NCBI RefSeq assembly: GCF_003971255.1
Contig: NZ_CP034660.1
Span: 4,650,001-4,714,000 of the forward strand
DNA from: Colwellia sp. Arc7-635
Lineage (GTDB): Bacteria > Pseudomonadota > Gammaproteobacteria > Enterobacterales > Alteromonadaceae
DNA: 64,000 bases
Direction: 5' to 3'
Shown here: in pieces, positions 4,448 to 59,175 of the stretch
Layout of the letters: every line of letters begins with the position of its first letter
How positions within the stretch are numbered: position 1 is the stretch's first letter
Translations under genes and position numbers: made by a program
The notes under the pieces: model-generated
What the model saw: the letters and a program-made list of their open reading frames with translations, nothing else
What the model was told of the DNA's origin: nothing
Database searches by the model: none

Positions 4448-4826
4448 TTAATTCTCCAAACATCAATTATGAGATTTTTTATCAAAGTTGATTTTTATCA
4501 TCTAAATCAATCTTGCGATAAAAGTTCACTCAGGTTTGTTATTTAATGTTGGAGAGTTGTAATTTTTACTATGATGATGTTATTTAAGATTAAATCGTTA
4601 CACTTAAACTACAATTAAGCAGTAATTATAGCTTTAACATCAAGTCATATTGAGATAGTGACTGCAGGTGAGAAGCACTGAATATTGCTCTTATTATTCT
4701 TTAAGCTGAACTCTGCGGTAAGCAGCACTTATACCCGTTCGACTTCAAGATGTAGTTTCAGCGCTAAGCTAGAAATTCAGTTCAAGGCGCGATACGCCGA
4801 TAATGGTCACTCCCTTATCAAGTATT

Positions 4827-4973
4827 GCACAGTTTTTTTGCTCCAGACAAAAGCTAAGTACATACATCCATGTATGCACAGCTTTTTTGCTCCAGGCAAA
4901 AGCTAAGTACATACATCCATGTATGCACAGCTTTTTTGCTCCAGGCAAAAGCTAAGTACATACATCCATGTAT
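4827..4973. repeat. Three tandem 49-bp units inside MITE family 1
   Basis: Units begin at 4827, 4876 and 4925, and a fourth begins and breaks off at 4974. Units 2 and 3 look identical and unit 1 differs at two bases. Each unit holds two potential hairpins: CATACAT-cc-ATGTATG (perfect 7-bp arms, spanning the unit junction) and AGCTTTT...CAAAAGCT. The 49-bp period is not a multiple of three, which argues against coding. Confidence 0.85.
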
Positions 4974-5090
4974 GCAACGCGGGACTGATTTTCTAGCATA
5001 GCGCCCTGCGGGCAGCCGATAGCGGGTCATCTGTGGCGTTATTGATTTCGATAATAGAATAACTATTCCCTTCAATTAATGCCTTGGTGC

Positions 5091-5140
5091 TAACCCGTTA
5101 TCAACTTGCACAAATCTGCATGTTGAAGTGGAGCGGGTAT
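5091..5140. repeat. 50-bp palindromic repeat, copy 1
   Basis: The right end of MITE family 1. It matches 17578-17627 at 45 of 50 positions and continues with further similarity beyond (ccagt). The ends are complementary (ACCCG...CGGGT, ACTT...AAGT), so it can fold alone. Confidence 0.75.
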
Positions 5141-8015: not shown

Positions 8016-9398
<1,383 letters not shown>

Positions 9399-50508: not shown

Positions 50509-50715
50509 TACCAATTAAAACAAACAATCGATCATTTTAAGGCGGTTTAAATCCCCAATATCTGTGTTGCTTTCAATCACAATAGCTAGCTATTACTCGG
50601 CAATATGCTCCTGCATTGCGCTAATGACTTACATCCATGTAAGAATCAATCAAGCGCCTTATTCTTGAAAATTTACCCTCGCTAAAAATTGATCGATAAC
50701 TTATTACATTTGGTA
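50509..50715. repeat. MITE-like element, family 2, copy A (207 bp)
   Basis: Bounded by TACCAATT and ATTTGGTA (inverted repeat of ATACCAA). In reverse orientation it matches copy B at 59017-59175 along its whole length except for one extra 49-bp block at 50599-50647. It starts 16 bp upstream of the DUF2254 start, so it may carry or displace the promoter. Confidence 0.8.
50599..50647. repeat. 49-bp module present in copy A, absent from copy B
   Basis: Copy B joins the flanks (TATTACTC next to AATCAAGCGC) directly. The module matches the 49-bp tandem unit of MITE family 1 at 26 of 36 aligned positions without gaps, including TGCTCC, GCTAA and TACATCCATGTA. Confidence 0.75.
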
Positions 50716-50971: not shown

Positions 50972-51406
50972 TTAACAGTCGTCATCTTCAGCTTCAGCGC
51001 CTTCTTTCACTTTTTCACAAGCGTCTTCAAGAGCGTTACCGGCATCTTTCTTCATATCCTTAAACTTACTGCTAGCACTGTCTTTCATTTCACCTAATTT
51101 TTCTCCAGCAGCGTCTTTCATGTCGCCAGCAGAGTCTTTCATTTCGCCTAATTTGTCGCCAGCGGCATCTTTCATGTTGCCTAATTTATCACCCGCAGCA
51201 TCTTTCATTTCGCTTAATTTTTTGCTGGCGTCATCTTTCATTTCACCTAGTTTGTTACCGGCATCGTCAACGGCATTTCCAGCTTCATTGACCATTTTAT
51301 CGACTTTTTCACCTGTAGTTTCTGCTTTTTCTTCGCTACAAGCGGTAAGGCCAAGTACAGCAACAAGTGTAATAACGCTAGTCGATAATTTTTTAATAAA
51401 AGTCAT
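50972..51406 (-). CDS. Lipoprotein with LEA-like 11-residue repeats
   Basis: 144 aa, lipobox LTAC (Cys at 23). The mature protein is one long highly charged amphipathic helix made of about six 11-residue repeats of the form DAAGDKLGEMK, the periodicity of LEA group 3 proteins, which protect cells during drying or freezing. The C-terminal DACEKVKEG...DDDC pair of Cys is shared with the paralogue at 51787. It is separated from that paralogue by a decayed DUF1328 gene. Role inferred as envelope stress protection. Confidence 0.85.
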   Translation of the reverse strand: MTFIKKLSTSVITLVAVLGLTACSEEKAETTGEKVDKMVNEAGNAVDDAGNKLGEMKDDASKKLSEMKDAAGDKLGNMKDAAGDKLGEMKDSAGDMKDAAGEKLGEMKDSASSKFKDMKKDAGNALEDACEKVKEGAEAEDDDC

Positions 51407-59016: not shown

Positions 59017-59175
59017 TACCAAATGTAATAAGTTATTGATCAATTTTAAGCGCGGATAAATTGCTCAAGAACAAGGCGCTTGATTGAGTAATAGCGGGCT
59101 ATTGGGATTGAAAGCAACGCTGTTATTGACGATTTAAACCGCCTTAAAAAGATCGATTGCTTATTTCAATTGGTA
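59017..59175. repeat. MITE-like element, family 2, copy B (159 bp)
   Basis: Inverted relative to copy A (50509-50715). Ends ATACCAA...TTGGTAT. It lacks the 49-bp module. It lies between the divergent glmU and tex genes, filling nearly half of their shared promoter region. Confidence 0.8.

Follow-up and report, generated by a model that had tools for sequence, protein, structure and literature searches.

Correia and ERIC elements are MITEs of two forms, one with an internal block of some tens of base pairs and one lacking it, and elements of the IS200/IS605 type insert without target duplication. Small repeats such as these MITEs, and REPs likewise, are generally regarded as one unit each; the locus analyzed here points to a smaller layer of apparently moving parts, of about 48 bp each, that are common to unrelated MITE families and to many bacterial genera. 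Several described systems bear on such parts: (i) in Streptococcus suis, the same boxB type of the BOX repeat lies inside two different flank families (PMC3049150, in extract), (ii) REP dimers inserted within palindromes have been reported (excerpts of PMC3733652), and (iii) REPs handled by Y1 enzymes carry a GTAG-like tag, while IS200/IS605 elements have hairpin ends and follow a guide rule (both from sections of PMC6006769). None of the papers retrieved by our literature search describes the present cassettes by title, and six cassette words of 13 to 14 bases had no match in the papers searched for them. The main text of RepRanger (PMC12306157) has no mention of Shewanella, Colwellia or Pseudoalteromonas, and the excerpted part of a MITE review (PMC10969869) mentions no such cassette.

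The window, a stretch of 64,000 nucleotides (positions 4650001-4714000 of G000, a single-contig genome of 4.74 Mb), carries members of two MITE families with the following features, in window coordinates:

4731-5140, plus strand: Family 1 MITE copy whose site 1 holds three class I cassettes and whose site 2 is empty, as compared with 43 Family 1 places of the genome
4830-4878, plus strand: class I cassette unit 1, CAG...GCA, 49 bp; edges from the insertion without target duplication at locus L143 and from empty Family 1 copies
4879-4927, plus strand: class I cassette unit 2, from the Tandem Repeats Finder period
4880-4886 with 4898-4904, plus strand: stem of hairpin 1 of unit 2
4910-4915 with 4920-4925, plus strand: stem of hairpin 2 of unit 2
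4928-4976, plus strand: class I cassette unit 3, from Tandem Repeats Finder and the repeat search
50509-50715, plus strand: Family 2 MITE copy A, filled
50597-50645, plus strand: class II cassette, TCGG...GAA, 49 bp, delimited against empty copies, with a C before TCGG
59017-59175, minus strand: Family 2 MITE copy B, empty, with the cassette site between 59087 and 59088

The first-pass annotation had reported three tandem 49-bp units in Family 1 and, in Family 2 copy A, a 49-bp block at 50599-50647 that copy B lacks. The former held, coordinates included, in Tandem Repeats Finder (4826-4976: period 49, 3.1 copies, 98% matches, 0% indels) and in a repeat search of the window (three copies, spacings 49 and 49); the latter was confirmed by sequence comparison, its placement being ambiguous by 2 bp and thus equivalent to the interval listed above. 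When the modules of the two families were aligned without gaps, the best 36-bp stretch again matched at 26 of 36 positions, above all 1000 dinucleotide shuffles (mean, 17.2; maximum, 23; 0/1000 reaching 26). That the modules are alike by chance, each family merely having its own internal indel, is in keeping with just 26 of 36 aligned positions in common and with different first hairpins. We consider this highly improbable given the shuffles and the performance of a covariance model built from ten cassettes, which had 75 hits in G000 with E below 1e-5 and matched 28 of the 40 genomes searched, its own genome included. Further repeats in the window lie in open reading frames: a 6-bp repeat (34.7 copies, 8953-9157) within a 460-aa ORF (8016-9398, minus strand), whose C-terminal part we take to be FtsY-like, encodes a long Pro-Glu tract, and a 144-aa ORF with a lipoprotein-like start (50972-51406) has repeats of about 11 residues (KLGEMKDAAGD) that match a 33-bp tandem repeat at 51121-51255.

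The Family 1 units of the window belong to class I, with the layout CAG-stem-GTTCCAGAC-stem-AAGTAC-NNNCATCCATGNNN-GCA (49 bp), and the Family 2 block to class II, with the layout TCGG-stem-TGCTCCTGC-stem-TCTA...NNNCATCCATGNNN-GAA or TCG (47 to 49 bp). What had been taken for one module in two families is better described as two related classes that share a double-hairpin plan but differ in their first hairpins, and a fixed unit length of 49 bp does not extend to class II. Free variation in length, which would have spoken against a shared module, was not seen among the intact copies compared (47 to 49 bp); the exceptions seen were a class I unit of 57 bp, in the Family 1 copy with four units at G000 3833112, and several units of other lengths in arrays beside astE. 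The units had also been proposed to fold, and every cassette indeed consists of two head-to-tail hairpins that differ in kind, with one TCC loop and one CATCCATG loop, the TCC loops lying on the same strand. Class I stems covary strongly: over 13 stem pairs in 34 distinct sequences, 95.2% of cells are paired (versus 77.5% when shuffled), and double changes number 65, versus 16.6 in shuffles and at most 12 in slid controls, in a tally of sequences, not events, from sequences that are related. These 34 came from a set of 68, out of which near-duplicates (mostly from G000), sequences in odd registers and a class II sequence were taken.

Across G000, site 1 of Family 1 holds zero, one, two, three or four class I units in 8, 30, 2, 2 and 1 of the 43 places, respectively. 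In this tally, the divergent units at 391044, 4596758 and 3833112 were counted on visual inspection, and several places are truncated. Site 2 is filled by a 48-bp class II module in 7 of the 43, and also in two degenerate copies beyond them. Family 2 carries its cassette in 18 of 38 aligned places and is empty in 20, three of its 41 places (1411292, 1173296 and 1575246) having been left out as divergent or partial; filled and empty copies number 6/4, 11/10 and 1/6 by subfamily, both states thus occurring in all three. The two families themselves differ at their borders. A 3-bp target duplication flanks 25 of 30 Family 2 copies checked, whereas no duplication of 3 to 5 bp was found in 30 Family 1 copies, for which a T before (7 of 8) and an A after (8 of 8 flank pairs inspected) would fit a TA target; different transposases therefore probably move the two.

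Cassettes are more alike between subfamilies than are the elements that carry them. In Family 2, cassettes are 99.3% alike, versus at most 91.2% for host windows (38 windows). The corresponding values in Family 1 are 96.7% and at most 87.4% (89 windows), from 43 places examined, 36 aligned (bodies of 250 to 280 bp) and 20 compared, with 8 filled copies, and with subfamily labels assigned from a rough pattern by which at least one copy (440499, left end truncated) is probably mislabelled. Such homogeneity is expected from gene conversion, and an alternative without cassette transposition would have old cassette-bearing MITEs that lose cassettes through precise deletion between short repeats, with gene conversion among MITE copies and slippage in tandem units spreading and homogenizing them. 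Tandem units and differences in their number fit slippage, and a Family 1 copy at G000 3745350-3745700 (L097), whose class I unit passes into a class II unit at the common CATCCATG, looks as if formed by deletion between two cassettes. Mapped on the tree of Family 2, filled status requires 10 changes, 3 of them forced by well-supported branches, versus a mean of 12.9 with shuffled labels; since 30 to 34 of 500 shuffles were as low as 10, the label is at most weakly clustered, which would fit the same alternative. To judge from the L097 hybrid, recombination certainly has a part in changes of copy number. As the whole account it is possible but the less probable one, because recombination alone does not place one class in different families, at several sites and inverted, or cassettes in hairpin centers and at a chromosomal site, or the strict class II pattern in genomes outside the class.

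These other settings are diverse. A third context in G000 (L143) is a 49-bp insertion in a hairpin unit, between GAACGGT and ATGTCGCG, adjoining an unfilled copy of the same unit. Family 2 of G008 has class II at the same site as in G000 and, elsewhere in the element, an inverted 49-bp class I cassette. In a third MITE family, from G003, class I and class II lie some 77 bp from each other; its copy at L391 is without class II. Class II also sits at the center of CATC/CATG hairpins (L381, L384 and L231), with unfilled hairpins of this kind in the same loci as filled ones at L381 and L384. Junctions compared with empty sites have no evident target duplication, some of them being ambiguous by 2 to 4 bp. 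Lastly, an orthologous site downstream of an astE-like gene (taken to be astE from its translation) is present in 17/17 genus genomes, where unit counts, made by eye over 300 bp per genome, ranged from no clear class I unit (G013, G014, G016, G006 and G000) through one (G004) to three clear units plus degenerate ones (G012, G011 and G007), the remaining genomes having degenerate or mixed arrays.

Some neighboring elements were observed in their own right. Arrays of another hairpin unit (TGTTCAGGATGAACGG...CACATGGATGTG) start directly behind the T-stretch of a probable terminator (L143, L166, L232, L384 and others); TTTT falls within 3 nt upstream in 18 of 40 distinct unit starts, one of the 18 (in the window) being probably a chance match, versus 3.5% of random positions. 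In G008, one element interrupts three Family 2 copies (L394, L396 and L398), each time at an identical point within hairpin 2 of class I. Its ORF starts with MKITTIGLDIAKS; the element is presumably IS110-like and may use this hairpin as its target.

Beyond close relatives, the strict class II pattern was found, among the matches listed, in Shewanella, Pseudoalteromonas, Methylobacter, Endozoicomonas, Colwellia and other gammaproteobacterial records, with tandem class II arrays of 47-bp period in Shewanella and Methylobacter. It also occurred in 6 of 398 genomes of the phylum, 4 of the 6 lying outside the class, and a reversed control pattern had no match in those six; the surroundings of class II are different again there, and some of these surroundings recur. 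Single hairpins are found as separate blocks as well, in Lysobacteraceae (L319 and L329) and at L253 and L351. A class-wide tally of 200/274 is not used as a cassette count, as it includes matches resembling ordinary coding sequence. Carriage by viruses was considered and set aside; the class II pattern appeared in 4 stretches of a viral collection.

Comparison thus shows presence and absence at defined points of three or more MITE families, of other hairpin units and of a chromosomal site, as well as tandem arrays in both classes and class I in both orientations within host elements; from this we infer that the cassettes move. Confinement to a single family had been named beforehand as grounds for abandoning the idea, and neither class turned out to be restricted to a single kind of element. 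That a cassette is independently gained and lost inside short palindromic elements of unrelated families, as the first-pass annotation proposed, is well supported by filled and empty sites, 0 to 4 copies, several families and sites, both orientations and a wide range of taxa.

We assign a probability of roughly 50% to the reading that the units are non-autonomous, REP-like double-hairpin mobile cassettes, perhaps inserted as single-stranded DNA. They would enter as folded single strands, like REPs or IS200/IS605-type elements, and a trans-acting nuclease would cut and join them, class II next to a C; copy number would afterwards drift through slippage or recombination, and a cassette inside a MITE would be copied on by that MITE's own transposase. 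Insertion as a single strand is suggested by the lack of evident target duplication together with the C before class II, the hairpins near the ends and the direct joining of tandem units. The C at position -1 was present to the left of class II in 48 of 55 distinct flanks and is the one strong feature there, and class I targets have no clear motif. Predicted unpairing at the insertion point was clear in only some of 8 empty sites. On the GGA strand, GTAG precedes class II hairpin 1 in 30 of 40 distinct sequences, collected with a pattern that required TAG and left only the G free. ATTAG takes its place in the Family 2 class II cassettes of G000, and class I mostly has GTACTTAG at this position (52 of 68 sequences).

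A resident Y1 transposase was rejected as the mover: no Y1_Tnp match (PF01797, E<=1e-5) was obtained in G000 or G003, both among the genomes richest in cassettes. At the same threshold the domain is present in 16 of 24 Colwelliaceae genomes, and it was found in 20/20 chosen class II-bearing genomes, a set with no matched control. Association with Y1 genes was likewise not found. Near 12 Y1_Tnp loci of relatives there was no cassette or CATCCATG-like hairpin, and 30 Y1 loci of class II-bearing genomes, some ending at contig ends, had no TGCTCCTGC block; six weak CATCCATG-like hairpins were seen in 4 of the 30, one of them (L467) with TCCAG upstream. Two further candidates were dismissed: the IS200 of G017 as parent, as its ends differ, and a longer autonomous parent with hairpins 1 and 2 flanking a gene, as the orphan hairpins seen in the loci compared lay in hairpin arrays or resembled degenerate copies, with none around a gene.

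A different reason for the persistence of the cassettes might lie in their loops. Hairpin loops of the form ANGGAN are bound by CsrA/RsmE, and CsrB repeats read CAGGA(U/A/C)G (excerpts of PMC7652899). On the strand opposite to the TCC loops, both cassette loops have GGA and the second has ANGGAN, so that the cassettes could be kept and spread as putative CsrA/RsmA binding sites, a reading to which we give a low probability. Among 76 class I sequences selected irrespective of this loop, the hexaloop of hairpin 2 reads A-N-G-G-A-N with 7, 18, 7, 5, 5 and 10 deviations at successive positions, the N positions being the more variable ones, and G000 contains, at another place, two TwoAYGGAY RNAs (Rfam RF01731) that have this loop too. 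Weighing against this reading, class I sits inverted relative to neighboring GGA-sense units, and codirectional settings have the GGA strand sense and antisense in equal or similar numbers (10/10 for Family 1 and 6/4 for Family 2), as scored with mechanical ORFs at 32 of 43 Family 1 places and at 25 among 28 of 41 Family 2 places. Gene orientation, with no bias in either family, lends no support to an RNA role, which was set aside on that ground. Rfam gave no cassette match in the loci searched and nothing at gathering score in the window. Slightly less probable still is that GGA-loop cassettes, by spreading through MITEs and hairpin arrays, would have built and multiplied CsrA-binding sites, as a scattered sponge, by micro-transposition. 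As a separate observation, the two TwoAYGGAY matches, both above the gathering score, fall within G000 2075500-2078100 (L110), where seven CATCCATG sites are listed between 2075964 and 2077589, the first two of them 349 bp apart.

For the reading as mobile cassettes, the filled and empty sites, arrays and covarying stems offer a route to ask how short hairpin DNA inserts and by which enzyme, and the cassettes also let one ask why the same loop motif is kept. They carry a warning as well, namely that MITE families can have sequence in common without common descent.

No named system had been thought to fit, which proved too strong: the boxB modules of BOX and the GTAG REPs are partial fits, and other systems share single features. 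TwoAYGGAY and CsrB-type RNAs resemble the cassettes in having hairpins with GGA loops, but the cassettes are unmatched by the RNA family and have no bias relative to genes. The internal length variants of Correia and ERIC elements resemble cassette presence and absence, a likeness of description. Derivatives of IS200/IS605 share with the cassettes two subterminal hairpins, as described in sections of the literature, and the lack of target duplication. Their left target is a fixed tetra- or pentanucleotide; the class II flank has C at -1 as its one strong feature, and class I targets have no clear motif. No Y1 transposase was found in G000 or G003, and the IS200 ends of G017 differ.

GTAG/CGTC REPs, according to excerpts of their descriptions, are like the cassettes short hairpin repeats, some of them dimers in palindromes. 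The comparison with the GTAG families of PMC3733652 (in extract) was by description, not by consensus sequence, and identity with one of them is possible. GTAG REP dimers are mostly inverted hairpins, whereas the two hairpins of a cassette differ in kind and run head to tail; class I appears to be without GT[AG]G at the hairpin foot; and GTAG REPs flank a RAYT gene, whereas no cassette flanked the Y1 genes at 12 + 30 loci. Empty target palindromes were found here but not in two REP cases of the excerpted PMC3733652. BOX, in Streptococcus pneumoniae and S. suis, is like the cassettes, in the excerpts available, a case of a short internal module, absent or tandem, in a small interspersed repeat, and the counterpart here of its module of variable number is the 0 to 4 class I units in Family 1. 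BOX belongs to another phylum, and the likeness noted is one of description. Unlike BOX, the system described here comprises two classes at several sites in several MITE families, and its cassettes occur outside MITEs, in inverted orientation and in many genera.
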